This document shows, one piece after another, positions 2,821-63,620 of a DNA stretch of 64,000 nt. Numbering within the stretch: the stretch's first letter is position 1; each line of letters begins with the position of its first letter. A program made the position numbers and the translations under genes. This DNA is from Mycoemilia scoparia (taxonomy: Eukaryota; Kickxellomycota; Kickxellomycetes; Kickxellales; Kickxellaceae), in assembly GCA_027575805.1 (NCBI GenBank), contig JANBPU010000080.1:1-64000 (forward strand). The letters are read 5' to 3'. The notes beneath the pieces are model-generated. The model did no database searches. It saw only the letters and a list, made by a program, of their open reading frames with translations, and was not told the DNA's origin.

Positions 2821-3493
2821 TGTTTAGACATTGCACAACGCACAGTATGCAATGCAACACAAATAACCTGCGTCCGTTCGCTCCCGCCCCATCTGTCGCT
2901 GTTCTCTGTGTGTTTGTGTCTAGCCGGCAGGCAGCAATAACAACAAAAGTTAAGAGGAAGAGATAGCAACATGGCCACAGAGAGCCATACATTCCCGGCC
3001 TTGCAGAAAAAGCGTATTCCAATAGCCGTAACGTTAAAATGCCGAAGCACATCATGGGTCTAATATAAACCCAGGCTTTTCCTGGCTGACCCACACCACC
3101 GCCTTCTCTGCTCCTCATCCACATCTCACAATTTCCCCCCTCCCTTCGTAACACACAGACACCACACTCTGTCTTTCCTTGTCTTTGTTTCTATTCTGGA
3201 TTTTACTTTAACCAACTCCTAGATTATCTATCTTGAATATTCATATATATCTTTGTATTGGTACTTTTATATTGCTCCCTTCCAAATCATCGGATTTGTT
3301 ATCAACCCGATTCATACATAAAATCACTGCAATTGTCCAAAAAAAAGTTATCCTGTACTTTTCCTTATCTAATAATACTGAAAAGAGTTTTACAAAACAC
3401 AATAATTATTCCCACGATATCCAAGTTGTCGTTCCACAATCATCACATCTCTTTTACTGATATACTACTCGTCGTGATCCGACTTCTTTGAAG

Positions 3494-5053
3494 ATGTTTT
3501 CGTATTACAGCTCGAGGACACAAATAGTCATTCTTGGCTTTGTGTGCTTCTTCTGTCCGGGAATGTTCAATGCACTCAACGGGATGGGAGGCGGCGGCCA
3601 GAAGGACCAGACCATCGGCAACAATGCCAACACTGCTCTATACGCCTGCTTCACTGTGTTTGGACTTACTGGCGGGATGTTTGTCAACATGTTTGGTGTT
3701 CGCTTGTGCATGTTCGTGACTGGCCTATTCTATGCTCTATACTCTGGCTCCTACATCTACCTCAACAATACCGGGAAAGGCGGATTCACAATTGCTGCCG
3801 GTGCTCTGCTTGGCCTGGCATGTGGTATCTTCTGGGCTGCGCAGGGTATGATCATGATGTCCTATCCACGCGAACAAGAAAAAGGCCTATTCATTACTAT
3901 CTTTTGGATCATTTTCAACTTTGGCGGTGTGATTGGCGGCATCCTTCCATTTGCCATCAACTTCAACAACGACACTTCACTCTCGAATGGCGCGTATGCT
4001 GGTTTCATTGCTCTCGAGTGTGTTGGTTCGTGCTTGGCCTGGGCCCTGGCACCTCCCAGCAAGGTTAGAAAGACCGATGGCACTCTTGTTCAGATCAAGA
4101 CCAACCCCGAAGAAGTCAATATTCGTAACCAGGTTGTTGGTATTCTCAAGACATTCAGGTACCCGCTTACTGCTGCACTTATTCCACTCAGCTTATCATC
4201 CAATTTCTACTACTCATACGAGTTCTCCGTGTATAATGGCGAGCTGTTTACTACGCGTACTCGCGGCTTCAACAACATCTTCTACTGGGCTGCTGAGATG
4301 GTTGCGTCGATTGGATTCAGCAGAATTCTGGATAACAAGAACATGACTCGTCGCAAGCGTGGTCTCATTGCTCTTATTCTTGTGACTGTGCTCCTTAACA
4401 TCTGCTGGGGCGGCGCCTTGGCTGTTCAGCTCCAGTACTCGAAGACCAAGCAGTATCCTGGCGGTATCATCGATTTCTTGGACGGAGGAAGAGCCGTTGG
4501 CCCCATCATTCTTTATGTCTACATGGGTGCCTGTGATGCACTTTGGCAAAACATGGCCTACTGGCTTCTGGGCGCTTTGACCAACGATGCTGACACATCC
4601 GCTCACTACGCTGGGTTCTACAAAGGCATGCAGTCACTTGGCGCTGTTGTTGCTTGGCAGCTGGCTGCTCAGAAGGTTTCGTTTATTGCCCAGCTTGTTG
4701 TTAACTGGGTTCTAATCGACCTTTCGCTTCCAACAATGTACTATGTTGTTCTAAGGATCCAGGATAGTAGCTATGATAAGGAGACTGCTGATGGTGATGA
4801 CAATGTGCAGGAGGGACAGCATGTTTTGGGTGAAAGTTCTGACAACAGTACTGTTGCTGGTGGTTCTGGCTATAAAAATGTTGCTACTGGTCCTGATGAC
4901 ATTAATGATATGGAAAAGGGATTTGATGGCCAAGTCAATACCTATACCAGTTCTCCTGCTCCTCCTGTATACTCTAATGAAAAGGACGGGGCTTTTACCC
5001 CAACTGGTTCTTATTCTATTGCTAACTCTACTGCCAAACAAGGTAGTCCATAG
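3494..5053 (+). CDS. UNC93-like major facilitator transporter, copy 1
   Basis: A 519-residue, single-exon integral membrane protein of the UNC-93/DUF895 branch of the major facilitator superfamily. Roughly eleven to twelve hydrophobic segments span residues 10-430. Family-like features are the N-terminal FFCPGMFNALNGMGGGG stretch, NANTALY, and FWAAQGMIMMSYP followed by a charged E/D-K loop. The tail (about residues 435-519) is hydrophilic and Ser/Asp/Gly-rich, probably cytosolic. Fungal relatives are largely uncharacterised, with proposed roles in transport or channel regulation, so the substrate is unknown. Start: the frame is open from a TTG at 3488, but the first ATG (3494) begins MFSYYSSRTQ, which aligns with the start of the second copy. 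A close tandem paralogue follows at 6279. Confidence 0.88.
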   Translation: MFSYYSSRTQIVILGFVCFFCPGMFNALNGMGGGGQKDQTIGNNANTALYACFTVFGLTGGMFVNMFGVRLCMFVTGLFYALYSGSYIYLNNTGKGGFTIAAGALLGLACGIFWAAQGMIMMSYPREQEKGLFITIFWIIFNFGGVIGGILPFAINFNNDTSLSNGAYAGFIALECVGSCLAWALAPPSKVRKTDGTLVQIKTNPEEVNIRNQVVGILKTFRYPLTAALIPLSLSSNFYYSYEFSVYNGELFTTRTRGFNNIFYWAAEMVASIGFSRILDNKNMTRRKRGLIALILVTVLLNICWGGALAVQLQYSKTKQYPGGIIDFLDGGRAVGPIILYVYMGACDALWQNMAYWLLGALTNDADTSAHYAGFYKGMQSLGAVVAWQLAAQKVSFIAQLVVNWVLIDLSLPTMYYVVLRIQDSSYDKETADGDDNVQEGQHVLGESSDNSTVAGGSGYKNVATGPDDINDMEKGFDGQVNTYTSSPAPPVYSNEKDGAFTPTGSYSIANSTAKQGSP

Positions 5054-6278
5054 ATATTTTTCAAATTTTCGTATTCACATATCTATCCATCCGTCCTTTT
5101 TATATCTCTGATTTGATGATTTTGTTTTTATAATAATACAAGTAATATAAGTAGTATATGATGATACTAGTATTCTTGGTAGTTAAAGAAATACAACAAG
5201 CCAATACAAACAATATTGACATTTTTAAATGCATTTTTTTTTCATACAAAGTAATAGTTGATATCATCACTAGATTCATGTTTAATTTGGTTACAAGTTA
5301 CTATAAACATAAATCAAACTCCTCCACATTATCATTGTTATTGTTATTGTTGTTATTGCCAATTTAGTAGGGAAAAATATAAAATAACCATTACGCCCAG
5401 TAACACAATCTCAGTAAATAATCGAACTATTGGACATGCTAAAAGGCAGTAGTAAAAGAGCATACATATATTCTCTGTACTATAAACTAGGAGTCATTGT
5501 CTTTAAAAAGGATACATTATCACTTTTGCCCATCAACCCTGAAACCACAAATCAATCTGAATCTTTGGTATGTGTGTGTGTGTGTGTGTAGAACCTGCGG
5601 AGAGGTTTTACAGGAACATCATATTTGTTGTATAGTCCACACATTTAGAACAAACAGTAGGTCCTATCAATGTACTCGAGCTTTATTGGCCATGATGATA
5701 AACTCCAAATTCTGGGGTTATTTCAACAGTAATTCCAGTTTCAACCGATCCAAGATGTAAAGACTGGCAAGAAATTATTTTATATCTATAAATGCTATTT
5801 GCTTTATATTAATTTATATTCAAAAGGGGATTATTTTATTGAAGTAACTTGGGACCTTAGTTCCGGAGTTTGGGTTACCAGAAGCATCATCATCAGCGAT
5901 AGTAGTAATGATATTACCAATACTGAGAAGTGATTATATGAAAAAAAATATAAAGCTCAAGGTTTAATGTAATGCTGATATGTTGTCAAGTAACAAAAGA
6001 GAAAGAGAGAGAGAGATAAGGAGAAATAAAAGTTTACATCTTGGTTTTTCTTATTTCTGTAAATCTTTTGAAATATACGTATATTTTTGAACGACTTTTG
6101 TCGTTTTTATTCATAACATCTTGCAACTTCATTCTATACCTTAGTTTTTGACCTCTACTAACATACGTGCATCCACAGATAAACAAACACACATATATTT
6201 AAATCTTTGAAAATAAAGTGCTCATACGAATAATTAAACAACTAATAGCACAGACACATACACGCGTGCGCACACAAA
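5054..6278. other. Intergenic region between the UNC93-like paralogues
   Basis: AT-rich spacer of 1.2 kb with no supported gene. It contains a TTATTG-type tract near 5334-5360, a TG microsatellite at 5571-5589 and a GA tract near 6000-6017. The last 200 bp before the second transporter are the presumed promoter and leader. Confidence 0.6.
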
Positions 6279-7742
6279 ATGGGCTACTATAGCGCTAAGG
6301 TGCAGATATACATTCTGGGCCTGGTATGTTTTTTTGGTCCCGGAATGTTCAATGCCCTGAACGGTATGGGCGGGGGCGGTCAACTTAACCAAAAGAACGG
6401 AAACAATGCAAACACAGCCCTATATTCGACGTTTACTTTGTTCGGTCTTGTTGGTGGAGCAATCGTCAATTTATTTGGCATCCGACCATGTATGTTTATA
6501 GCAGGCTTGACCTACGCTTTATACTCTGGATCGTATATCCTTGTCAATTCTACGGGAAACGGATCGCTGACAGTAGCCTGTGGAGCGCTGCTGGGTGCTG
6601 GTGCTGGAGTGTTTTGGGCGGCACAGGGAATGATCATGATGTCGTATCCCAGAGACGACGAAAAAGGAGCATTTATCACGATATTTTGGGTCATATTCAA
6701 CCTCGGTGGCGTACTTGGCGGAATAGTTCCATTTGTTATCAACTACCATAATACTGGGGCGCTATCGAATGCCGCGTACATTGCCTTTGTTGTGCTGGAA
6801 TCGCTTGGCGCATTCATGTCTTGGGCATTGGTACCGCCAAGAAAGGTTGTTAGGGCCGATGGGTCTCATATAAAAATAGACCCGCATCCAAGTATAAAAT
6901 CCCAACTCCAAGGAATGGGCCGCATAATGACCAATCCTCTGATTTTTGCGCTTATTCCTCTATCCTTTTCATCAAACTTTTACTACTCTTACCAATTCTC
7001 TGTATACAACGGCAAGCTGTTTACCACCCGCACCCGTGGCTTCAACAATATGTGGTACTGGTGTTCCGAAATCATTGCATCTCTGTGTTTTGGTGCCCTT
7101 CTGGATACTAAGTCAATGTCACGAAAAAAGCGCGGGATCGTTTCTCTTTCGATCGTCGCTGTGCTTTGGAATCTATGTTGGATTTTGACATACCGTATAC
7201 AGAGACATTATTCTGCCGACAAGGAGTATCCTGGTGGCCAGATCGACTTTTTGGAACCCCACAGATCGGCTTTGCCCATTGCTCTGTACGCGTTCATGGG
7301 GGTTTGCGATGCGCTTTGGCAAAATATGGCGTACTGGTTGCTTGGCACTCTGGCCACGGACCCGTCAACATCTGCCCATTATGCAGGAGTTTACAAAAGC
7401 ATGCAATCCCTGGGCGCGGCTGTTGCTTGGCAGTTGGCAGCCAAGGAGGTCAATTATATGGTACAAATGGCTACCAACTGGGCACTGATTAACTTGTCAA
7501 TTCCAACGATGCTCTTTGTAACAATGAGAATTAAAGATAGCGATAAAGGGATGGATGGTGAACAGGACATAACAGCTGCAACGACTACAACATATTCCAG
7601 ATATGATGGAAACACCGAGGCTGATACTGGAAGCTATTCGTGGAACAAAGAAAAGGCCGACCAAAGCACTATCGCTGAAGACACTACGGGGTTGGGTAGA
7701 AATGATGCGACTCTAACTTCAAGTAATCCAAACTATGCATAA
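6279..7742 (+). CDS. UNC93-like major facilitator transporter, copy 2
   Basis: A 487-residue membrane protein of the same UNC-93/DUF895 MFS family as the gene at 3494, in the same orientation 1.2 kb downstream. The two align over nearly their whole membrane core, sharing PGMFNALNGMGGGG, NNANTALY, WAAQGMIMMSYPR and KLFTTRTRGFNN-type stretches, but differ in the hydrophilic C-terminal tails. This pattern indicates an old tandem duplication: amino acids are conserved while synonymous positions differ widely. The start ATG at 6279 is followed by GYYSAKVQIYILG. The transported substrate cannot be told from sequence. Confidence 0.88.
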   Translation: MGYYSAKVQIYILGLVCFFGPGMFNALNGMGGGGQLNQKNGNNANTALYSTFTLFGLVGGAIVNLFGIRPCMFIAGLTYALYSGSYILVNSTGNGSLTVACGALLGAGAGVFWAAQGMIMMSYPRDDEKGAFITIFWVIFNLGGVLGGIVPFVINYHNTGALSNAAYIAFVVLESLGAFMSWALVPPRKVVRADGSHIKIDPHPSIKSQLQGMGRIMTNPLIFALIPLSFSSNFYYSYQFSVYNGKLFTTRTRGFNNMWYWCSEIIASLCFGALLDTKSMSRKKRGIVSLSIVAVLWNLCWILTYRIQRHYSADKEYPGGQIDFLEPHRSALPIALYAFMGVCDALWQNMAYWLLGTLATDPSTSAHYAGVYKSMQSLGAAVAWQLAAKEVNYMVQMATNWALINLSIPTMLFVTMRIKDSDKGMDGEQDITAATTTTYSRYDGNTEADTGSYSWNKEKADQSTIAEDTTGLGRNDATLTSSNPNYA

Positions 7743-12432: not shown

Positions 12433-12554
12433 ATATGGGTAGCTATTTTTGAAGGGTAGCCATTTGCTAACAGGCTGTGATCACTCATTTGGCTGTGTTT
12501 TCCCCTATAATCGTTGGCCACCAAAAGTCACACTTCGAAAATTATGATCCATAT
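12433..12554. mobile_element. MITE family 1 copy (left unit of pair)
   Basis: Bounded by inverted termini: ATATGGGTAGCTATTTTTG at the left and CGAAAATTATGATCCATAT at the right. The interior carries CATTTGGCTGTG and GTTGGCCACCAAAAGTCAC. It is non-coding and about 120 bp. The right end abuts the next unit, sharing the ATAT. Related copies lie at 46736, 51865 and 63513. Confidence 0.75.
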
Positions 12555-12676
12555 GGGTAATAATTTTTGAGTGGTAAATTTTGGTGGCCAACAATTTTAT
12601 AGGGGCAACAATCACAGCCAAATGGATTTCTGGTTTTACTAGTGAACATTCACCCTCCAAAAATTATCTCCCATAT
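12551..12676. mobile_element. MITE family 1 copy (inverted right unit of pair)
   Basis: Begins ATATGGGTAATAATTTTTG and ends CAAAAATTATCTCCCATAT. The interior reads TTGGTGGCCAAC and CACAGCCAAATGG, the reverse complement of the left unit's interior. The two units together therefore form a large imperfect palindrome at about 12486-12625 with arms of roughly 65 bp. Confidence 0.72.
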
Positions 12677-22199: not shown

Positions 22200-22340
22200 G
22201 GGAAATTTCATTAGTGATCGAATCCAAGATAGGCAGCAATGGTGTGGACCCTCATCAGATTTTGGTCCAATCCTCAGCCATTTGATATACAATTCCCACG
22301 GACCTATTCTCCTAAAGCCCTGTCAGTTTCAACTATATAG
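22200..22340 (-). mobile_element. MITE family 2 copy overlapping a gene 3' end
   Basis: Minus-strand order: TATATAGTTGAAACTGACAG, GGCTTTAGGAGAATAGG, AATGGCTGAGGATTGG, then a GGGTCCACACC block, GATTCGATCACTAATGAAAT. It matches the other family 2 copies block by block. Its first 37 bp are translated as the C-terminal end of the F-box-like protein and contain that gene's TAG stop. Confidence 0.68.
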
Positions 22341-23185
22341 TCAACCTGACGCTTGACTTCCTCAGTTATATCCTTCCAACCAGAAAAATCGAAATGGTTG
22401 CTTGATGGGAATACTACGAAAAGCTTGTTCCAAGCCCAGTCACCACGATAAATTGCAAGGTCTGTTTGTATGCACATGGAAGTGTCATCGGACCAACAAA
22501 TCAAGCAAATCAAATTTCTTGTAAGGTTGTTGCGATTGCAATAGACGTATTCTTTTCTAGTCTCGCAACAGACCATAAATTCTCTGTCATCCTTATTCAA
22601 GTCAAAATAATCCTTGCCTAACGCAATTTTTGCTATACATATCATATTTTGTAATTGGTAATAGTTTATTTCTTCAGAGTTTTTGTTGACATCATCATAG
22701 AAGCTTCCGCCCCTTACACGACGATCAGAAGCGGTCGCTCTTTCGTCCGATTCATGGATATCTTGGAGTTGAGGCGGAACTGTGTAAGAATAGTCTCCAA
22801 ATAGTGCAATTCTCTTCCCTGCCCAGCCGTACTTTGTAGCCAGATAATAGTATATCTTTTTTGCAATGTCTGGGCTTGTCTGTGCGAATTTTATCTTATC
22901 CTTATCATTGGATATCTTTTCGAACATCTGGCAAATGATCTCAACAGGAAGATGATCTAGCTTTGAGTTTTCTAGCTGTGTATCATCATCATCATCATTG
23001 CTGGAGTTAGTACTAATACTATCGTCATGAGGTGGGCAAGGGGCGGAGGAGGTATATCTTTGAAGCGACAGTAGGAAAACCATGTAATAGAAGGCAGATT
23101 TCTCGAAAAGGATCTCACCAAGCTTGCCCATAGACCCAAATGTTTGCTTTTTCTCATAGCAAGCTATCTGCCAATATTGACCCAT
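22304..23185 (-). CDS. F-box-like protein with MGQYWQI N terminus
   Basis: A 293-residue, single-exon protein. The N terminus begins MGQYWQIACYEKKQTFG and MGKLGEILFE, a motif that I associate with uncharacterised fungal proteins. An F-box-like segment follows a poly-Asp run (residues about 75-115): LDHLPVEIICQMFEKIS, then a TSPDIAKK stretch. F-box proteins usually recruit substrates to SCF ubiquitin ligases; that role is inferred here, not shown. The C-terminal half has no recognised domain. The last 11 or so residues and the stop codon come from a family 2 MITE. The start ATG at 23185 is followed downstream in frame without interruption; just upstream is a run of GTT/TTG repeats (23186-23208). 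Confidence 0.7.
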   Translation of the reverse strand: MGQYWQIACYEKKQTFGSMGKLGEILFEKSAFYYMVFLLSLQRYTSSAPCPPHDDSISTNSSNDDDDDTQLENSKLDHLPVEIICQMFEKISNDKDKIKFAQTSPDIAKKIYYYLATKYGWAGKRIALFGDYSYTVPPQLQDIHESDERATASDRRVRGGSFYDDVNKNSEEINYYQLQNMICIAKIALGKDYFDLNKDDREFMVCCETRKEYVYCNRNNLTRNLICLICWSDDTSMCIQTDLAIYRGDWAWNKLFVVFPSSNHFDFSGWKDITEEVKRQVDYIVETDRALGE

Positions 23186-23674
23186 CGTTGTTGTTGTTGT
23201 TGTTGTTCTTTCGTTTTGGTTCTACAAAAGGGAATTGGTCTAAGTAGAAGTAGAAGTAGTAGTAGAACGCTGACTTGATAATAAGGATAAATACGTATGG
23301 AGTGAAAAGCAGAAGACAAGTTGTTTTCAACCCTCTTCTATGAAAAGCACGAATTTAAATAGCTTCAGGAGTGAGGAGCAAGAGGCTTTCTTGAAAATTT
23401 ATCAATAGCATTGACTCAAAGTTCACAAGGCTTTGGCCCCATATACAGAGTGAGAGTGATGTCATTGTGGATTTGAGTGATTGCTATTCAAAAGTATTTA
23501 ATCACAGGACACCAAAGCATCGACTATGGTATAAGAAACCTCAATAAATAATAATTCTATCACTATTATTATTATTATTGTTATTTTATCAATAAAATTG
23601 TTTGAAACCTCAGTAGCAAACCAACAAATAATTTACAAAACTACCAAACGAGATTAACTATTCTAATGTGATAT
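23186..23674. other. Intergenic region
   Basis: About 490 bp. It contains GTT and AGT trinucleotide runs close to the F-box gene start, and a fragment AGTTCACAAGGCTTTGGCC at 23420-23440 that resembles the left end of the family 2 MITE. An ATT/ATA-rich run lies near 23560-23590. No gene is supported. Confidence 0.55.
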
Positions 23675-26034
23675 TTATGACTCCCCTTGTGGGGTACTCA
23701 TTTGTGCTAGATATTTTCGAGTCATTGGGCTTAAATCTGTTGACATTGAATCATACTCATTAGGATTCGATAACTGTGATGGTGATGATGATTGTGTTGG
23801 TCTTCTAGCAAATCTTGATTTAAGATTTGTTGAATGGTGATGATGTTGTAAGTTGGTACTAGGAATTCGGGCGATGGGATGGCTGTTAGATGTTAGCGAA
23901 GTAGATGAAACTCTAGAATATCTTTGGCTATGTTGGGGTTTAGCACCAACACCGTTACTACTACTGGTACTGCTGTAATTGCTGTGACTGCTAGTTGGTC
24001 TAGATAGTGGCCGAGAATATTGTTGCTTGTCACTTATGAATTTTCCCTGCATCTGGTTAACCAAATCTCCTATGCTGGTTGTAGATGATGGGCGTCTACG
24101 TATAACTTCTGATCTTGGCTTTTGATGGGGTATTGCTGGTCTATTATTTATGAGATTGTTGTTATTATTAGGCTTGTAAGATTCTATTTTCGGGGGTTCT
24201 CTATTAATATTTCCAAGCCTTAGCGTATAATCTGGTAATGGCGGTGGCAATGGTTTTTTGGGTATTGATGTATTATATGGATTGTGATGTAATGTTTCTT
24301 CATACCCTTCAATAATACGTTGGTAGTGGTTTAAAGATGGTGGTATTTCATCGAAGCTCCCTGAAATAGCTCTTCTGGTGTTGTTGTTATTCTGTGATAC
24401 ATTATCTTTAATATTGGGAAACACGTTGCTAGTTTCGGTAACTCTGCCATATCTCCTTGTAATGAATGGTTGTGATGATGATGATGATAATGCATTTTTG
24501 GCTTTTTCTCGCTCTAACTGTAGAAGCTCATTGTTTTGAGCAACATGTACCCGAAGCAGATCTCTCTGTTCTTCAAGTAGTTTTGATACCGATTTTTGGT
24601 ACAAATCAAGTTTATCCAGTATCTCTCTATTATTGCATCCGATAGCTACATTGTCCATTGATAGAGAACGATTTCGTATAATTGTTCCCGGTGACATAAC
24701 GTCTTGGTTCCCCTTTTCAACACCTAACGTCTTGAGCTGCAATTCTTTTGGATCACTATAATCGGTGCTTGAAGGAGGCTTGGGCTCACCACTGATTGGT
24801 TTTAGTTTTACGATGATATCCGATGAATTTGTTTCGTCGAATGCCTCGTCACCGGGTAACAAATTCTGGCGTTTGTGTAAATTTTTGGGTAACTGGATGG
24901 TTTTTGATCCAAAGGAAACACAGTCTTCATCGTAAATTTGAACCTCGGAATTTATTTGGTAGTACTTTAGGACCATTGATGCCGTGTTTTCGCCGTCAGA
25001 TATGTGTATCAGTCTAATTGATTTTTTGGGTGGGTGGTGCTGAAGTGCCTGTTCCAGTATATCTTTGGTTACGACTTTTGAATAAATCCATATTCCTGCT
25101 ACTCCATTATCATCTAGTATAACGGTTGGTAACGCTATGAGCTCGAGTTCAGAGTCTCTCTTTTTCAGGATCCCAAATTTATATTTGGTCTCCGAACTAT
25201 TAGCTTGAAGTCTTTTTAGATTTTTTGGGAGGTTTGTAATTGAAAATGGGGAGACTGATTTTACTGATATCTTTTTTATCAACTTGGTTGACCAAACTAC
25301 ATTGTTACAAAGTATATTTAGAAAAGCTAGCACATGGCAAGAATAAGCTGATATATATATATATAAGCAAGTGAGTGAGCATATAAATGTAACTTACATT
25401 CCAAAGAAAATGTGTTCCTATTACTAGCCAACCGTATAGATAGGATCACGCAATGGTTGCATGACTTTTTGACCGTGTCAATAAACTTATTTGTATCGAA
25501 TGCTTCATTGTACACTGGAATGCAAACATCCCCAGGCAACAAACCGGCTGGAGACTGCTGTTGTGGACCATTGGCAGCATCCAGTGGTAATACTCGATCA
25601 ATGTAAACAATATTGTTGGACCTTACAGCGCTGGAAATGGAGCCAATGCACCATGCAATTTTTGGCTCAGATACCGATGTATTTGTAAGCTCGATAACTT
25701 TGTCAATTGTAGCCTTGGACACTGATATCATGATATCAGAATATCCATGTTCTATCTTGTAGTCCAAAATGGTGTCAAAGTGGTATCTGGAGGAGTTTGA
25801 AATATCATTGTTTATAGCTCTATGGTCCCTGTGTTTTTTGGATTCAGTTTCTATCTTTTGGGTATAACTGCAAGGGTCATGCCCTGAGAAATGACTGTTT
25901 CTTTCTGGAACTACACCACGAATATCGTAGGGAGACCGAGGCCGGCTAAATGACTCTCCCAGATTATAACTATTCGGGGTCCTGCGGGGTTTTGGTACGT
26001 ATCTTGTAAACGACTCGTCCATACAGGTATACAT
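23675..26034 (-). CDS. STIL/Ana2/SAS-5-like protein (STIL N-terminal domain)
   Basis: Predicted 769-residue protein from two exons, 26034-25398 and about 25347-23675. The donor is GTAAGT; the acceptor could instead lie 21 bp later at 25326, in the same frame. An ATG at 26022 is an alternative start. Residues about 83-390 resemble the animal STIL N-terminal domain in block order: GSIS then YIDRVLPL (131-151), LLPGD.CIPV (165-175), VILSIRLASNR, ITNLPKNL, TKYKFGIL and GVAGIWIYS (about 296-302). A coiled-coil candidate at 455-497 (YQKSVSKLLEEQRDLL) lies where STIL has its Plk4-binding coil. The protein ends with DLSPMTRKYL near its C terminus. STIL/SAS-5 proteins scaffold the centriole cartwheel with SAS-6. 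The family call is from remembered conserved blocks, without a database search. Confidence 0.68.
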
Positions 26035-34785: not shown

Positions 34786-37582
34786 TTATTCACCATTAAC
34801 TTCTCTGAGGAGAAAGGATGTAGTAAATGCCCCTTCCTTGTGCCGTTCAAAGGGATTTCTGGAATCCTGGTGTTGCTGCTGATGCTGGCTAAAATGTCCA
34901 GATTCAAAATCCATGTTCAAAAGCAGCTTTGGGAAAGAGACAGAATTAAACATGTCAAGTTTCATTGAATCTTTTCCATAAATGTGGCTGTTGACTTGCC
35001 TCCACTTTGCTACCCATTTTGCTTGTTGCCAAGGCAGAACTCTCTGATCTTTCCAACCACCAGTTATCAAAATGGATGGAAGACTGGCGATATCTGGTTC
35101 TGAGGAAGACACATTTAGCTGTGGAATTTGATCATATGGTGCATATTTTTCAAGTATGCTGTAGATTTTTGGATCGTTAGAAATGTCGCCCCACTCGGAT
35201 TTTTCGACATTAGTAAGTGGGAGAGAAGTGTCTAACATGGAAGAAATTGGGTCAAGGAAAGGCACCTTCATAACCAGAGCCCTAAACCAATCTGGTTGCT
35301 TATTTAGAGCCGTGCCTAGGACAAACCCACCAGCCGACTCTGTTATGGCTGACATTTTCGATGGACTGCTCCATTTTTCATCAAACATATACTGAACACA
35401 ATCCATAAAGTCCAGTACAGAGTTGGGCTTTAAATGACTTTTGCCAGTAGTATACCAACTCGGCCCCAATTCATTACCACCACGTATGTGTGCTAAAGCG
35501 ATAATCCAATTCCTTTTTAAAAGGGGTATATCGGTAACGCGAAACTCTGGTTCTAATGGCACTCCATATGCACCATATAGTCTGAACAGTACTGGATTGA
35601 AGCTATCTTTTTCAAGGTGTCTATGATGTATCAATGTTACCGGGATCTGTACGCTCTTATCCCTGCTAGGTACTTTTTCTCGGTAACACACAAAATCAGA
35701 GGGGTTAAAGCCTACAAGACCAAAATAAAATGAGCCAGTCATATAAATAAAAATGTCTAGAGTGCTTGTTGTTAAAAAAGTAACGATATTGGGTTATATA
35801 TACCTATATGAGTTGATTGCCATTTTTTAGATATCTTGTTGGTCTCCAAGTTATAATCAGCAACTATGTCCAGATGCGTTGGCGAGTGGTAACTGAAACG
35901 GATACATGGTGATTCAAACTAAACAAATTTGGATCATTGCAGGGTTAATTAGGTGCCGCTATATTGGTAAATATGTATGGAATATGCCTGGGGTCAATTA
36001 CTTACTGTGTTTGCATTTGGCTTAACAGAGCAAACTTCATTGCCAGCTGGTAAAGGCACTTGTTTCCAAGCCTTTTTAGCTATGTCCCAAGCAATTATCT
36101 CAGGTAAACCTTGCCTTTTTATAAACACTACTATAAAGTCCTATAAGAAATAATAACCTCTGATTAGAGCCGTTATATTTCACCTTAGCCAATTTTGAGT
36201 AGTAACTGTATGTCTTCTTGAACAAACCTTGAGTAGCTCTACATCCTGGATCTGTTGTTCTTCATTAAGCACAAGCCATTGCTCCCACTCTTCTGCTGTG
36301 GGCAGGGTCTTGTCGTTGCATTTGTAAAGAGAAAACTTTCTCGCTTCAGTAGGCTCATTGGAACTGCTAGTATCATTTGGCTGGTAGTTAGAGAGAACAA
36401 CGAATTCGTCCTATGGAAAATAGAAACTTAATATCTATGGCGAATAGGTATTACTTTCACTGTATATTTTATTCTTACGTTTATGTGGTCAACGAAGCTC
36501 TCAACGCCACGGATTCTTGGTGAAATGGGCGTTAGTTTGCCTTTTGAGCCATTCTTGATATCCTTAAAGCTGGCACCTGTTGGTATTAGATATACTTGGT
36601 TGGAATCGAGAGTGCTGCTGTAGATTGATATGTATTCTCCATCCTTTGTTTTGGTGACATCTAGGAAAGCCTCTTCATCATGTTCCTCAAATATTAAATA
36701 TGGACTAGTTTCTTTGCTGGGTGAATTAAGGTCATGTAAATAAACCTTGTCGGATCTTAGTTTGTCATTCAGAGATGTGAAATAGATTGCATCATTAGTA
36801 GACCAAACGAAATTTAACACATCTTTGACACATCCAACCATCTCAAGGTTTGCTTTTTTGAAACTTTTGTTCAATGAGGATGAGGATGAGGCTGAAGATA
36901 TGATCTTATATATCCGTAGTTGGCCAAGTTCCTGACTGGCAATGTCATGCTCATCATTACCAGTCCTATTCTTGTATGAACTCAAATCTGTCAGAAGACA
37001 CCCAATTAATGAATTATCCGGAGATACCAAGATGCTGTTGATCGAACAACCCTCTTTGTTCAAGAATTCTACCGAATCAACCAATAGTTCCTCAGGTGCG
37101 TTTTTGTCATTAATAGCACGACGATAATACAGGGTACTTCCATTATCAGATCTTATTTTGGTATAATATGTAAACGGGCCATTCACGGTTTCTATAGGAG
37201 GTGGTGTTTGTTCAACATATAGCGCCTCTTCCATTTCTTTTGCCAATCTTTTCTGCAGACTTCGTGTAGACTTCATGATCTTGTTGGTGTAGCTGGTTTC
37301 TTTTTGTAAATAGTTATACAAGTCGTTCTTTGATTCTTTGTTTTGTAGCCACGAGAACGGATCTGCGCGTCTCGTTTTTCCATTATGTAATTCTACTATG
37401 CGATCTTCTCTTGGCTCTAAGGCCGGAGGCGGCGGCGGTAAGGCTGATGTAAGAGACTTCCTAAATGCTTTTGTAAATCTTGATAGTCTATTCCATCCAA
37501 AACATCTTTGAAAAGTGGTATTTCTGATATTGCTGAAAATGGCATGTCGTGGAAATCTAAGCTGTTTTGTTAGATATTTCAT
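34786..37582 (-). CDS. Prolyl oligopeptidase-family serine peptidase (oligopeptidase B/PREPL-like), probably mitochondrial
   Basis: 820 residues from five exons: 37582-36479, 36410-36228, 36140-36006, 35918-35804 and 35711-34786, all GT-AG with consistent phases. The N-terminal 50 residues are rich in Arg/Lys and lack acidic residues, as in a mitochondrial presequence. The segment EDRIVELHNGKTRRADPFSWLQ opens the S9A domain, followed by a beta-propeller region. The C-terminal hydrolase domain holds the probable triad: Ser638 in TESAGG, Asp734 in GGWKDQRV and His785 in ESGHF. LYGAYG and IRGGNELG are typical S9A blocks. The nucleophile motif is TESAGG where GxSxGG is usual, so activity is likely but altered. 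Substrates would be short peptides. Confidence 0.87.
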
Positions 37583-51640: not shown

Positions 51641-51864
51641 CTAAGAAAATGTATTTATATTTTTAATTTATTCAGTGAAGGACCATCATACTTTAATAAT
51701 ATTATGGGGTAGCAAAAATCTATTGGCTTGATTTGTTTATCACAAAACACACAGAGCCAATTATTGAATCAAGCCTTTAGTTGTATTTCCCAAAAATTGG
51801 ATGTGGGGTATGAGCAATAGCAAATCCTTCATAGAAACACTCAATTTGTCCCTTCTAATTGAGC

Positions 51865-51969
51865 CATTTGGGTAATAATTTTTGAAGGGTGAATGTTTGG
51901 TAATCAACTGTGATTGCGCTTATAATTGTTGGCCACCAAAAGTCACCCTTTAAAAATTGTTGCTGATAT
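51865..51969. mobile_element. MITE family 1 copy
   Basis: Left end ATTTGGGTAATAATTTTTG with GAAGGGTGA; right end GTCACCCTTTAAAAATTG and a degraded terminus CTGATAT. The interior has CAACTGTGATTGCG and GTTGGCCACCAAAAG. 105 bp. Confidence 0.68.
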
Positions 51970-52358: not shown

Positions 52359-55300
52359 TTATAATTGTCCGTTAAGTATAAGCTCAATAGCATCACCGAT
52401 AAATTCCTTGCGGTGGGTGAGATCAACTCCATATTGAGCCGAGAGCTGTTCACGGACCTTCTTTTTAGTGATAGTCTGAAGATCAGAGTTGTTGAGGATT
52501 ACACGGATGGCTTCAGTGAGCTCCTCATCGTTGGGAAGAAGGCCAGACTGCATCATTCCTGGAGTTCCGCCACCTTGGAGGTTGCTGTTGTAGGGGATGG
52601 GAGTAGAGACAGTAGGCGGTATGTACATGGACGATGTACTGGGTGGCATTGAATATCCAACTGGTGGGATACCTGGCTGGCCATATATTTGAGGTGGCAT
52701 TGAACCCTGTGGGGTCATTGGTGGTATGCCGTCGGTGACTCCCATAGCACGGGATAGACGAGGGTCGTAGTTTGGAGTTGGCATCATTGGCTGGTTGAAG
52801 CCCATACTGCTGCCCATAGCCGCGGACAATCTGGGATCCATTGGCATAGGAACAGGGGTTGCGGAAGCTGAACCAGGGACTCCCATCATCTGGTTGGGTG
52901 GAATGGTCGACATCGGACGAGAAAGATGTGAGCTGGCAGACATGCGTTCATCGTGGCTGGCGTTCTCATTCATATTTGGGGGTGGAGCATTGAGAAGACC
53001 GTACATGACCAACTCTTGCTCATACTCGGTCCAACGACGTTGTGGAATGCTGTTGGGATCGAAGGCTCTGTCGTCAGAAATGAGAAGCTTGCGCTTACCT
53101 TCGCCAACAACAACACGAGTGTTACCCCATGAGAAGTCATCAAAGTGCCAGAACGAGTAGATGGGAAGAACAAAGGACCACAGCGGGTAAGCAAGTAGGT
53201 ATATAATCATCCAACCAATGTGCTGCCATTCACGACGCAAGATGAAGATGACGGCCTGCAAACCATAGATAGCACCGATAAGAATCAATGAAATGTACGA
53301 GAAAGATGTAATGTCCGCCACAGTAAGATAAATCAAAATAGCAAAGTATATCAATGTGGTTGGCATAGTAAGGGTACTGAACAAATCGATAAAGACAACG
53401 AAACGCATGGAGAAGCAGCAGAAACCGCACATATCAGGCAAGTAAAGGAGCTCGACCAAGTTGTGGATGGTAGAGTTAATCCAACGACGACGCTGAGACA
53501 AAAGGATGGACCATTTCTCTGGAGCAATAGTCTGACATTTGGCATCACGGATGAACTTGTACTTGCTGGTTGGGAAGTGCTTCATCATCAGGGTAGTCAA
53601 GTAACGATCCTCACCAAGAGAAAGCAAATTCTTCTTATGCAGAGTATCTACGTGTAATTCAGAATATCCTTCGACAACTGGGTTGGAGATGAGGAGCGGC
53701 TTTCCTTGCTTGGTACGGATACGATACATACAGAAACAACCGGGCAAACAAGTGACAGATCCAAACAATGACTCGAAGGCCTTGGCCATGTGATGAGAGA
53801 TGAAGTATTCGTAGACTTGGATCATAGTGGTGAACGAGCGGTTCTCGTTACCCAACATGGTTTCACCGCAAATACCTGCGATGCGAGAGTCAGAGGTACA
53901 GGCAGAAACGAGGCGGGTAAGGGAGTCTTCCATAACATGGGTATCAGCATCAATCTGGAGAATGTATTCGAATGCGTCAGGAGGAATACCAATGATGTGT
54001 TTCATCTGGTGATACATCTCAAGCTCCAAGGGAGTCATGGGCAAGTCAAAGTGAACCTTGTTAAGGAACTGCATCAAAATGATCTGGGAGTCACGTTTAC
54101 CACGGTTACCAGCACGGGAGGTTTCTTCTGGAGTACCAACCTTGGCTACAACCATGTAAGGGACAACATGGCCTTCATATTCGTACAAACCAGAGTAAAC
54201 CTTGGCGCGGTTATGGCGACGAGATCCTTCAGCAATGGCAAGGTAGTCACGAGCAGGTGGATCATACTCGGGGTCAACACCGAGAATGTCCAAGACAATG
54301 CGAGGTGTTGGGCGATCGTTTCCATGACCAACAATGTTACCGTCGCAGATAACGAAAATCAGCTTGGACTTGTCGTTATAATCGAGGGCTGCCAAAGAGC
54401 TCAAGGTAATCTCCAAACTGTCTTCATTTTCAGTATAGCAAGGAACTTGGCAGAGAACGTGCTTCATTGGTGGGAGGGGACGCTTCTTGGTACCAAACTG
54501 CATAGCTGCCAAGAACTTGGACAAAATGACAAACATAAGGACACACGCGAATGCGAGAAGCATATAGTTTGCAAAGAGACACTTGACGCTGTGGCGCTTA
54601 TCGACCTTGCCAACATAGAATGCGTTGTTGATACAGTTGTTTACCCTATTGAACTCAGCATTTGAGAGTCTGAGGTGGCTAGCGGTCCAGAGCTCGGTAA
54701 TATCAGTATCATAACCACCACCATCGTTTAGTAGGTCAGTGATAGTGCTACTTAAGAAGTTGAACTGCTTGTTATCCTTGTAGTAGTCAGCACGGTTGAT
54801 TGTTGAAAAGTAGTCATCGAAGTTGTAGACGCTGTCATTGATGATTCTCCAGTATTTACCAACTTTTTTGTGCATATGATCCACATACTTCTTCTCCCAG
54901 ACCAGGTCACCCTTTCTGAACAATTTTAGTTTTGGCAAAGCCGTTTTGGGATAAAAGAATGGGTCATCGGTTTCGGTGCTTCTGATTCCACCTCTCTTGC
55001 TGTGGGCAAGCGCAAGAGTTGGATCTTTGTCATCTTCACTGACGGTAAAGAAGTTGTCGTAGTTCTTGTCATCATTGACCTCACCTAGTCCCGGGCAAGC
55101 AACACGGATAGGGATAGGGAATGTCTGGTTGACGTCCTTTCCAACATAATCTCTCATCTGGCTCCAGCCTGTGGGATACTTTGACCCACCATGGTTCATC
55201 TTAATGAACGAGGTGATATCGTAAACGCTTCCACGAAGATAAACCCAAGCCTTGTCCTGAGTGCTGTAGCCTTGTACTTCCATGTTGCCCCAAACCTTGA

Positions 55301-55859
55301 CAGGGGGACATAGTGCAAAACCAAGACCAACAATGATGAAGAGCAAGAGAAGCCATAGGAAAAGAATAATGATACAAATGGCAACCTTTTCACGCCAGGC
55401 CATACGAACATCAGGACGTTTCATTTTACCAAGACTGGTAAGTAGGGGAGTAGGAATCCACCATGTCAAGAACCAAGTGATACCCTCCCAGATACGGCGC
55501 TTGAAGGTGATGTTTACTTCTTCGACCGACTCGTGCTTTGGTTTTTCATCACCTGTGGGTGTAGTGCCATCATCAAGAATCTGATGTTTCTCTGGCTCTC
55601 CCTTCTTCATCCATCCGAAAAAGCCACCGTTGCCTGGACCGCCAGTACCTGGGCTGCCTTGCATTGTGTTACCACTTGGGTGCATTGGTGGTGAATGAGT
55701 GTCAGAAGGAGCGCCAAGCCGTTGGTTTTCGTCGCCAGCATGAAAAACGCTCATTGTTGGTGCGGATGTATTGTCATTTGTACTGTAGGCTTGGCCCCAA
55801 TTTTGGCCACCGCCCATACCGCCACCGCCGTTCATATTATAAGGAGGCGAGTTGGGCAT
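52359..55859 (-). CDS. Chitin synthase with cytochrome b5-like segment and DEK C-terminal domain, no myosin motor
   Basis: A 1166-residue plasma-membrane enzyme polymerising GlcNAc from UDP-GlcNAc into chitin. Order: Gly/Asn-rich N terminus (1-100), membrane segment (about 160-185), a cytochrome b5-like segment (YLRGSVYDITSFIKMNHGG, about 210-228), a second membrane segment (about 430-450), then the family 2 glycosyltransferase core. Catalytic signatures: PCYTENEDSLE, QIDADTHVMED (about 631), EGYSELHV, GEDRYLT (about 747) and QRRRWINST (about 788). Five or so C-terminal membrane helices follow. The last 60 residues (EELTEAIRVILNNSDLQT, then YGVDLTHRKEFI) form a DEK_C domain, as in class V and VII chitin synthases, but there is no myosin head. 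Single exon; start ATG at 55859. Confidence 0.93.
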   Translation of the reverse strand: MPNSPPYNMNGGGGMGGGQNWGQAYSTNDNTSAPTMSVFHAGDENQRLGAPSDTHSPPMHPSGNTMQGSPGTGGPGNGGFFGWMKKGEPEKHQILDDGTTPTGDEKPKHESVEEVNITFKRRIWEGITWFLTWWIPTPLLTSLGKMKRPDVRMAWREKVAICIIILFLWLLLLFIIVGLGFALCPPVKVWGNMEVQGYSTQDKAWVYLRGSVYDITSFIKMNHGGSKYPTGWSQMRDYVGKDVNQTFPIPIRVACPGLGEVNDDKNYDNFFTVSEDDKDPTLALAHSKRGGIRSTETDDPFFYPKTALPKLKLFRKGDLVWEKKYVDHMHKKVGKYWRIINDSVYNFDDYFSTINRADYYKDNKQFNFLSSTITDLLNDGGGYDTDITELWTASHLRLSNAEFNRVNNCINNAFYVGKVDKRHSVKCLFANYMLLAFACVLMFVILSKFLAAMQFGTKKRPLPPMKHVLCQVPCYTENEDSLEITLSSLAALDYNDKSKLIFVICDGNIVGHGNDRPTPRIVLDILGVDPEYDPPARDYLAIAEGSRRHNRAKVYSGLYEYEGHVVPYMVVAKVGTPEETSRAGNRGKRDSQIILMQFLNKVHFDLPMTPLELEMYHQMKHIIGIPPDAFEYILQIDADTHVMEDSLTRLVSACTSDSRIAGICGETMLGNENRSFTTMIQVYEYFISHHMAKAFESLFGSVTCLPGCFCMYRIRTKQGKPLLISNPVVEGYSELHVDTLHKKNLLSLGEDRYLTTLMMKHFPTSKYKFIRDAKCQTIAPEKWSILLSQRRRWINSTIHNLVELLYLPDMCGFCCFSMRFVVFIDLFSTLTMPTTLIYFAILIYLTVADITSFSYISLILIGAIYGLQAVIFILRREWQHIGWMIIYLLAYPLWSFVLPIYSFWHFDDFSWGNTRVVVGEGKRKLLISDDRAFDPNSIPQRRWTEYEQELVMYGLLNAPPPNMNENASHDERMSASSHLSRPMSTIPPNQMMGVPGSASATPVPMPMDPRLSAAMGSSMGFNQPMMPTPNYDPRLSRAMGVTDGIPPMTPQGSMPPQIYGQPGIPPVGYSMPPSTSSMYIPPTVSTPIPYNSNLQGGGTPGMMQSGLLPNDEELTEAIRVILNNSDLQTITKKKVREQLSAQYGVDLTHRKEFIGDAIELILNGQL

Positions 55860-58427
55860 TATACGCTAATAAAACAATGCAACTTTGCAAAACGCGCTGC
55901 CGTTGTTAACTATATATGTTTGTATACGCGTTCACGAGCAAGTGTTTGTAGTTGTTTATATCGCCTGGTTTTTGTTGATAAAAACTGAAGTCTCAAGCAC
56001 AGCTACGAGTAAAGTTCAGGACGAATAGTTCTAGATAACGGTGATAAAGAAAAATGCAGATAGGAAAAGAGTGAGAAAAATCAAGTTAGTATACCAAACA
56101 CTTATGCGAAAGGGGCGGTGTAAATATGATGGTGAATGGGCTGGTGGTGGATGATGGGCAGATTGCTGCAAAGAAAGGGCAATCCTTTGTGAAAATGAAG
56201 GTATGAGCAAGGGGTTTGTGTCAAAAAAATGAGGGCGATTTTGTGCAAGACAGAGATTTTAACGACACATACAGGCACAAAAAACCCAAACAGAAAACGA
56301 GGATATACAAGGTCGATATTTTGGAAAGTATCCAAGCAAGTTAAATATTCGAAGATCAAGAATATACAAATAAACAGAGTAACAACAATAACAATAATAA
56401 CAAGAGTGGGACAGTAATAGAACGAGAAAAGAAACAAATGAAAGATAGAAAGAAAGAAAAGGAGCAAGGAAAAAATAGAGATATTGGTCTGGGAAGTCCA
56501 AGCTGCTGCTGCTGCTGCTGCTTTAATACTAATCTATGCAATGCAAAGAGTGAATAAGGGTGAAAGCCTATAAATAGGACAACAATTTTGCATGGCAGAT
56601 TTTTTTAAATAGCAGCAGCATCACCAGCAAGGGGGATTAGGATAAGGAGGAGCAACGACATAAACGGAAAACTGAGTCATGTCAAACAAGGCAAGAGAAA
56701 AAACAAAAAAATCAAACACGCGTGTGTGTGGTGTGCGTGTGAGTTGTGTGAAGTAGCAGCGGCAGCAGCGACAAAAAAAGCAGGAATAAAGTTGTATGAT
56801 ATAAAAGTCATAACAAACCCTTACCTATAATGAGCTAATATAGAAATAGCTAAACAATAAATAGATGCAACTTATGTATGTATGATAATAAAGGTTGAAA
56901 AACAAAGCGATTGAGATAGCTATGGTGTTCTACTATTTACGATAATAACGAAAATAAAGAAACAGAGAGATGTTGAAGAATATACAGAGAAATTTATGGA
57001 AAGAAAAGTATGTAGGTGATGATAATGATGGTTTGTTTAAACCGTAAGAGGGAAAGGGTAAGGGATAACCACACAATAGATTATGTGCAAAAATGCAAGA
57101 ACAGGTTGAAAATGGTTAAATGGGCAAAGACAAGACTGTATCCTTACACAGTAAATTACATGAACAGAGGGAACATGAGGTAATGAAAGTGAGATAGAGA
57201 GGTGGAAAGAAAGAAAGAAAGAAAGAGGTGTTATAGACTTACAGAGATTATGGTGATAGTAACGGAGTTAGATAGAGCTAGAGCTATGGTATTTAAATGG
57301 AGGAAAATCGTCAGTTTATATAATATATGTTGAAAGCCACTGACCAAAGCAGCAGCCACGCTAGCAGTAAGTAACAGTAAGATTAGAGAAAGAAAGAACA
57401 AATGAAAGAGAGTAAGAGCGTAATATAATGGTCCACAGCGCAGCACAAGCAAGAGCAAAGCGGGCTTGAACAAAAAACACAAAAGGAAAAGCAAACAAAG
57501 GTAAGGCTAAGAGAGAGAGCCTTTGGCAAAGATAGCTTGAGTTGTGTATGTGTAGAGCCCAACAGCAAAGCAAGCGAAAAAAGGAGGGTACAGGAAAAAA
57601 AGCTTGAAAGCGTAAAAGAGACCCCTTCAACAGGGACCAAGGCAGTTAATAAATAGTCCAGAGCAATGGAAATGCCAACAGCAACAAGAGCAGAGGCAGG
57701 CAAAATACCACAAAACAGAACCAGAGAGCGAGAGTGAGAAGGCAATAATTGAATGTCGCTGTATAGTCACTGCTCTGTATCTTGTTAATAATGCTAGTGA
57801 AGAGTCCAGCACTGCAATGCATATATATATAAAGGGCCTGTGTGCGTATACAGAATGTACAAATGCTAGGTAAGATTTCCTAGAGATTGCCCAAGTCTCT
57901 TGGAAAGAAATGGCAGGGGACTATAAAAATATCGCCGACCCGGGGGTAAATATTAGCACCATATCTCGGTTTAGATACACAAGTGACGGCCAACAAATGC
58001 TTTGTTTATTTGTGTTGGAATTCCCAACTATTCCTGCTACTGGCCCCAGCATTATACAGATACACAACTACATACATAGAATGCACACACACGGCATAGC
58101 ATAGCATCAAAGTTTTCTGGCAAACTTCAGTATTCTTGGTAGCTGGAAACGTTAGTACAAAAGGCCTTTGACTAAAAGTTTGTGAACCGCTATGGACTTT
58201 TGCACATGGTGATGTGAGATAGACATGCGATTCAGACCCTGACACTGCTGACTGAGAGAAAAGAAGGTACACATAAAACAATGATCCTGACGTATTTTAA
58301 CGCATACATGAAAAATGGGGTGAAAAGGACTGACTGCTATTAGTAGACAAGTGAAATCTAAAAATGGAAACACTAAGGCTTACACACTCAAAATTCAACC
58401 CGGTGTTGGGCCTTCGCACCAATCAGC
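55860..58427. promoter_or_regulatory. Long upstream region of chitin synthase
   Basis: 2.6 kb without a supported gene between the chitin synthase start and the 3' end of COX10. From about 56200 to 57750 the + strand is strongly purine-rich (GAAAGA, AGAGCAAG runs), so the chitin synthase sense strand is pyrimidine-rich. It contains CTG repeats at 56502-56522 and an AAAG tetranucleotide run at 57205-57226. On the minus strand there is a good splice donor (CT|GTAAGTC, cut at 57243/57242) and a strong acceptor (CTTTCTTTGCAG, exon from 56165), which could mark a leader intron. Open frames here are low-complexity shadows. Confidence 0.45.
56502..56522. repeat. (CTG)n trinucleotide repeat
   Basis: Seven CTG units in the upstream region of the chitin synthase gene, outside any supported coding sequence. 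Confidence 0.85.
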
Positions 58428-63512: not shown

Positions 63513-63620
63513 ATATGGGTAGTTATTTTTGAAGGGCTATAGAGAGTCACTCATTTGGCTGTGATTTCCCCTTTAATCGGTGGTCACCAAAAGTCACCCT
63601 TCAAAAATTATAATCCATAT
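63513..63620. mobile_element. MITE family 1 copy
   Basis: Clear inverted termini: ATATGGGTAGTTATTTTTG with AAGGG, and CCCTTC with AAAAATTATAATCCATAT. The interior has CATTTGGCTGTGATTTCCCC and a GGTGGTCACCAAAAGTCAC block. 108 bp. Confidence 0.78.

Follow-up and report, generated by a model that had tools for sequence, protein, structure and literature searches.

In animals, the TCP domain of SAS-4/CPAP-type proteins binds STIL, and the consensus for peptides bound by the CPAP TCP domain is PRxxPxP; P11A and R12A are among the mutants of fly Ana2 that were tested, the zebrafish exchange P423A carries a 2.4-fold cost, and eight STIL-touching residues of zebrafish CPAP are named in the sections of that work cited here (PMC3776556). 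The same sections describe STIL as a fast-diverging protein, with about 13% identity between fly and zebrafish (PMC3776556). In human STIL, serine S1116 is described as a PLK4 site in the STAN motif that is needed for efficient SAS6 binding (PMC6570480). As for fungi, the passages of two articles that deal with genome surveys state that animal centriole-biogenesis proteins have been identified in no fungal genomes but those of chytrids (PMC6559791, PMC6070874). One of the two also describes fission yeast poles to which fly SAS-6, Bld10 and SAS-4 are recruited (PMC6559791). The spindle pole body of Coemansia reversa contains a cylinder of nine microtubules that was called "reminiscent of a centriole" (PMC6070874, citing McLaughlin 2015), and the passage in question adds that this cylinder might be a degenerated centriole and that its molecular composition was not known in 2018. 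Sanchytrids provide a fungal precedent, being described as having centrioles of nine singlets and as having lost delta and epsilon tubulin (PMC8371127). Among the titles and abstract openings listed in a literature search that covered few subscription journals and no supplements, none mentioned STIL or SAS-4 in Kickxellomycotina.

Judging from its sequence, a two-exon gene on the minus strand of Mycoemilia scoparia (Kickxellales, Kickxellaceae) very probably encodes a divergent homologue of STIL/Ana2. The gene lies in a contig stretch of 64,000 nucleotides, which was analysed as a whole and is called the window below, and its product, of 748 aa, stands in the protein database under the name "hypothetical protein H4219_003383 [Mycoemilia scoparia]". 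The Kickxellales are a group of fungi without flagella, and the host is non-flagellated. An earlier note, made from the letters of the window alone, had proposed here a two-exon gene for a STIL/Ana2-type protein, and both open frames (25393-23675 and 26043-25327, minus strand) are present with the sequence blocks that it quoted. The length of 769 residues given there has to be replaced by the 748 aa of the deposited protein, with its longer intron and its ATG at 26022 (Table 1); the 769 aa are obtained with a 50-bp intron that ends at 25348, a nearer acceptor, and with an upstream start at 26034, where a second in-frame ATG is found. No relative other than the protein itself was found at E<=1 in a protein database (8000 + 1371 candidates scored), and neither the NCBIfam profiles nor a PDB sequence search gave a match. 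Related Kickxellales have sequenced genomes.

Table 1. Features of the STIL-like gene H4219_003383, with positions counted from the first letter of the window
Feature	Residues	Position	Strand	Basis or remark
Whole gene, 748 aa	1-748	23675..26022	-	Spliced translation 100% identical over 100% of the deposited protein
Exon 1	1-209	25398..26022	-	
Intron, 101 bp, GTAAGT...ATGTAG		25297..25397	-	Agrees with the deposited protein
Exon 2, including the stop codon		23675..25296	-	
PRRTPNS, candidate SAS-4-binding motif (PRxxPxP, with S in place of the last P)	12-18	25969..25989	-	
STIL N-terminal-domain-like region (spans the intron)	72-345	24887..25809	-	Alignments, shuffles, hhalign
GSIS...IDR...LPGD.CIP block, best-conserved part	123-169	25516..25656	-	Sub-cut-off Pfam STIL_N match
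TKYKFGIL	245-252	25166..25189	-	Aligned to TYKYGYL of human STIL
GIWI	276-279	25085..25096	-	Aligned to GIWL (human) and GIWV (Trichoplax) of STIL
Proline-free region with likely coiled coil; core 449-470, LEEQRDLLRVHVAQNNELLQLE	426-480	24482..24646	-	Alignment, heptad count
LSPMTRKYL, STAN-like motif	730-738	23708..23734	-	Pattern search, alignment

The similarity of the N-terminal region to STIL exceeds chance in shuffle tests made with human STIL, with Trichoplax STIL and with hhalign. BLASTP places residues 123-279 colinear with residues 78-264 of human STIL, with 22% identity and E=0.002 as a single comparison. The local alignment of residues 72-330 with human STIL scores 62 with BLOSUM62, a value reached by 3 of 2000 shuffles, and 155 with BLOSUM45, reached by none of 2000; that of residues 72-345 with Trichoplax STIL, for which the N-terminal domain structure is 5OI9, scores 169 with BLOSUM45 (0/2000 shuffles). 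With seven mammal STILs plus Trichoplax, hhalign gives 32.9 (300 shuffles: 14.5 +/- 2.6, maximum 28.5) at a probability of only 30% and with a confident part of 50 columns, and the result with 18 mammal STILs without Trichoplax is weak (probability 4-9%). Moreover, 33 residues are common to the fungal, human and Trichoplax proteins (300 shuffles: 18.2 +/- 4.9, maximum 31), and human-identical residues are somewhat enriched at Trichoplax-conserved positions (33 of 93 vs 33 of 140). The domain borders, like the STAN pattern described below, were picked after the match had been seen, so the shuffle figures are only indicative. With the Pfam profile STIL_N, the exon-1 frame gives E=0.019, and two pieces of 251 and 163 aa give 0.012 and 0.005, respectively, that is 14.4-16.2 bits against a curated cut-off of 27 bits, which is a detection threshold; the spliced 748-aa protein has no STIL_N line in the Pfam search. 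As this cut-off is not reached, the protein is regarded as a probable divergent homologue and not as a curated member of the family, and the fast divergence of STIL may be behind the weak profile scores. The ordered STIL N-terminal blocks that had been recognized by eye are thus upheld, being colinear with human STIL and beating shuffles with BLOSUM45. The profile comparisons, of which the earlier note had suggested the one with STIL_N, have a more mixed outcome, as STIL_N matches are obtained but all of them below the cut-off, and the hhalign score lies above all 300 shuffles but at a probability of only 4-30%.

Further along the protein, residues 449-470 and the human STIL coiled coil 726-747 give an ungapped score of 29, which is reached by 20 of 5000 shuffles, and this core is the best of 86 window frames when compared with the human coiled coil. 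The Pfam profile CC_STIL has no match in the fungal protein and does match human STIL in the same library. The central coiled-coil candidate proposed from the letters remains a likely coiled coil, similar to the human one but with no CC_STIL match.

Near the C-terminus, LSPMTRKYL resembles the STAN core NMSFATKKYM. A pattern derived from both has its sole match here among 325,410 six-frame positions (the window and further loci, some overlapping), arises in 13 of 200,000 shuffles of the fungal protein, and is present in 112 of the best 120 of 622 STIL proteins, the named ones being mammals, so that the STAN-like motif claimed for this gene is borne out. The YGL that follows the pattern in those listed STILs is absent from the fungal protein. 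S731 of the latter aligns with serine 1117 of a 1288-aa monkey STIL; human STIL is 1287 aa long, so we take the monkey serine to correspond, by length, to human S1116.

The peptide PRRTPNS is the only PRxxP of the protein, in which a strict PRxxPxP is absent; in 20,000 shuffles, PRxxP arises anywhere in 21% and within the first 40 residues in 1.1%. The proline motif of human STIL comes after the N-terminal domain and before the coiled coil, and therefore only the fly protein offers the same N-terminal position as PRRTPNS.

The strongest new evidence comes from beyond the window and concerns a partner that the earlier note had not named, since the genome is predicted to encode a TCP domain of the SAS-4/CPAP type that keeps part of the STIL-binding groove. 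A whole-genome search with the Pfam profile Tcp10_C picked up a pair of adjacent exons on contig C54, with E=3e-5 and 0.015, of which neither reaches the cut-off when taken alone, a kind of match also given by 1 of 14 control genomes; once joined, the two exons reach 46.6-46.8 bits against a cut-off of 36 bits. In the PDB, the best 5 of 13 matches of the fungal TCP domain are TCP chains of CPAP/SAS-4 (E=3.9e-10 to 6.5e-9), the next match having E=0.016, and MORN_2 matches the joined piece weakly (E=0.0015, below cut-off). TCP10 proteins also carry a TCP domain. Four of the eight named STIL contacts of zebrafish CPAP are identical in the fungal TCP (F978, Y994, Y996 and H1003), F1015 is replaced by Y, and the changed ones are T1005 (to E), Q1019 (to E) and E1021 (to A); these residues were placed on the 4BXP chain by adding 932, which yields the right amino acid at seven positions, position 1021 lying just past the printed 4BXP alignment. 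The modelled fungal part has 94 residues, and the zebrafish construct 188. At the end of the TCP exon, which it interrupts, lies a repeat of 106 bp that has matching inverted ends, 10-bp flanking direct duplications and an in-frame stop at its start, and the last TCP residues may therefore be lost. A dispersed short repeat family is represented on C54 (L010 3710-3826), in the window (12435-12674, 51856-51958 and 63552-63620) and on two tubulin contigs, and these shared repeats place C54 in the same genome.

The genes around the STIL-like gene look fungal. Contamination is rejected because genes for ATG2, DNA polymerase alpha, SET1 and chitin synthase are present in the window and because the TCP contig shares the dispersed repeats. 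Some other frames of the window can be described as well. A 305-aa frame at 22304-23221, just downstream of the STIL-like gene and on the same strand, has no Pfam match at E<=0.001. Two neighbouring frames of UNC-93/MFS-type transporters (3461-5053 and 6249-7742) lie on the same strand and are perhaps a tandem duplicate, and a prolyl oligopeptidase extends over two frames of one strand (34786-35742 and 36428-37582), first the propeller and then the peptidase part, which probably form one gene with introns. The chitin synthase is found in one 1168-aa frame (52359-55865) together with cytochrome b5-like and DEK_C domains, and this frame has no myosin motor match at E<=0.001.

The remainder of the genome was searched for flagellar genes and for other centriole genes. 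One dynein heavy chain C-terminus was found (counts here being lower bounds, so at least one), and the tubulins found comprise alpha, two beta, gamma and a Misato-like gene, with types judged by eye except for one beta tubulin (L006, PDB match). There is no delta or epsilon tubulin among the tubulins found; a divergent tubulin on C112 was considered for this role and discarded, its frames reading by eye like Misato. A single dynein heavy chain and the lack of delta and epsilon tubulin among those found fit a fungus without flagella, and a flagellated host is ruled against by the taxonomy of the Kickxellales together with the single dynein heavy chain found. PACRG has one match, which lies in a frame of 2872 aa and has 18 bits, less than the cut-off of 22.

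Two core partners named for this search in the earlier note did not appear in the genome. SAS-6 gave no match with Pfam SAS-6_N or with zebrafish SAS-6, and a degenerate PISA pattern gave 19 matches vs 24 in the reversed control, all 19 being rejected since none was SAS-6-like in context by eye. The Plk4_PB1 profile had no match in the genome, and the only Polo-box gene detected carries a pair of POLO_box domains, like Plk1/Cdc5. These two negatives are weak, because the same genome search returned nothing for STIL_N in its own genome either. In the search for POC1, none of 94 WD40 matches stood out (best long match 32% identity), and two short pieces of 54-55% identity were found on C456. Additionally, C135 (L047 3-5525) encodes a coiled-coil protein of great length, in which PACT matches weakly (E=0.0057, below cut-off) near the end of the part read; near this end stands RWRRVLWIVRFKSR, which by eye resembles the calmodulin-binding end of pericentrin/Pcp1.

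Taken together, an N-terminal domain, a coiled coil and a STAN motif that follow one another as in STIL are predicted in one non-flagellate genome that also appears to hold a TCP domain. The explanation that probably fits this combination best is that a centriole-assembly module has been retained, in reduced form, at the spindle pole body. As STIL_N remains below its cut-off, CC_STIL has no match, and insensitive searches did not find SAS-6 and Plk4, this retained module is regarded as likely and not as proven. A STIL/Ana2-type protein in a non-flagellated fungus, as first proposed, is well supported, and the spindle-pole module, retained or repurposed, that had been proposed with it gains a TCP domain in the same genome and is left without a SAS-6 or a Plk4 among the genes found. 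The STIL-like protein would be a fast-evolving STIL/Ana2 homologue, kept after the flagellum was lost, that most likely helps in building or duplicating a reduced spindle-pole-body core that descends from a centriole. Its coiled coil would oligomerise it, and its N-terminal domain would dock it at the pole. The genome's own SAS-4-type TCP protein may receive the N-terminal PRRTP peptide in its aromatic groove and would itself provide the connection to microtubules. A Polo-family kinase would phosphorylate the STAN-like motif near S731, after which this motif would recruit a SAS-6-like scaffold; we infer in this way the binding, the phosphorylation, the location and the existence of a SAS-6 in Mycoemilia.

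The loss of SAS-6 and Plk4 could be real, and STIL and SAS-4 would then be true homologues that were repurposed for the duplication of the pole or for nucleation, with neither a cartwheel nor a nine-fold cylinder. This reading is unlikely, although it accommodates the finding of STIL-like and TCP genes alongside the negative searches for SAS-6 and Plk4, and the long coiled-coil protein with the sub-cut-off PACT match would suit it; moreover, pericentrin of fission yeast is described as recruiting fly SAS-6 to an acentriolar pole (PMC6559791, in the part cited). The insensitivity of the searches, which missed STIL_N itself, speaks against it, as do the nine-microtubule cylinder described in Coemansia (PMC6070874, in the passage cited) and the conservation of a STAN-like motif whose known role is SAS-6 binding. 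An improbable alternative is a chance or remote resemblance, in which an unrelated, lineage-specific protein would have a coiled coil, a disordered tail and a domain that belongs to some other family. The sub-threshold profile score, the lack of a database relative at E<=1 and the low identity to human STIL would be expected of such a protein, and the motifs had first been chosen by eye and were tested only afterwards; the shuffle results for three regions that lie apart in the protein and in STIL order nevertheless make a chance match unlikely, and a SAS-4-type TCP domain in the same genome would be unexpected in a fungus without centrioles. Slightly less probable still is a decaying relic, in which the STIL and SAS-4 genes came under relaxed selection after the loss of the centriole, as the high divergence of the STIL-like protein and the repeat with its in-frame stop at the end of the TCP exon might suggest, but the frame is uninterrupted over its 748 aa, its one intron is clean, and the enrichment of human-shared residues at Trichoplax-conserved positions (p=0.034) argues against it. 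The chances given to these readings are not exclusive, since the relic overlaps with the repurposed homologues.

Within the preferred reading of a retained, reduced module, a bolder version can be put forward tentatively, with chances that fall somewhat short of even, namely that the spindle pole body of the Kickxellales still houses a genuine though reduced centriole, built of nine singlets and of STIL and SAS-4 with a hidden SAS-6, and used in mitosis only. If this were true, the loss of centrioles in terrestrial fungi would be separate from, and later than, the loss of flagella, and a reduced centriole would have outlasted flagella, axonemal dyneins and delta and epsilon tubulin. The pair of STIL-like and SAS-4-like genes also allows one to ask whether a centriole can survive for mitosis alone and how the spindle pole body arose.

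Compared with animal STIL (human and Trichoplax), the fungal protein has the same colinear N-terminal blocks, a likely central coiled coil and a C-terminal STAN-like motif. It differs from them in being only 22% identical over the aligned N-terminal part, in its length of 748 aa vs about 1290, and in having neither a Pfam threshold match nor a strict PRxxPxP; of the CEP85 interface of STIL, R67 is kept in neither human alignment and L64 only in the one made with BLOSUM62. A large N-terminal domain is a STIL trait that fly Ana2 is not known to have. On the other hand, Drosophila Ana2, for which a Sas4 site, a coiled coil and a STAN motif have been described, shares with the fungal protein a PRxxP-type peptide at the extreme N-terminus (P11/R12 in the fly, as far as the mutants described extend), as well as the coiled coil and the C-terminal STAN. 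The gene on C54 shares the repeated PDG-type hairpins of the TCP/G-box of SAS-4/CPAP (4BXP, 4MPZ). Coemansia reversa, in which the nine-microtubule cylinder was described, belongs to the same family as Mycoemilia, Kickxellaceae, and the pair of STIL-like and SAS-4-like proteins would give a Coemansia-type cylinder named candidate components, to our knowledge the first.
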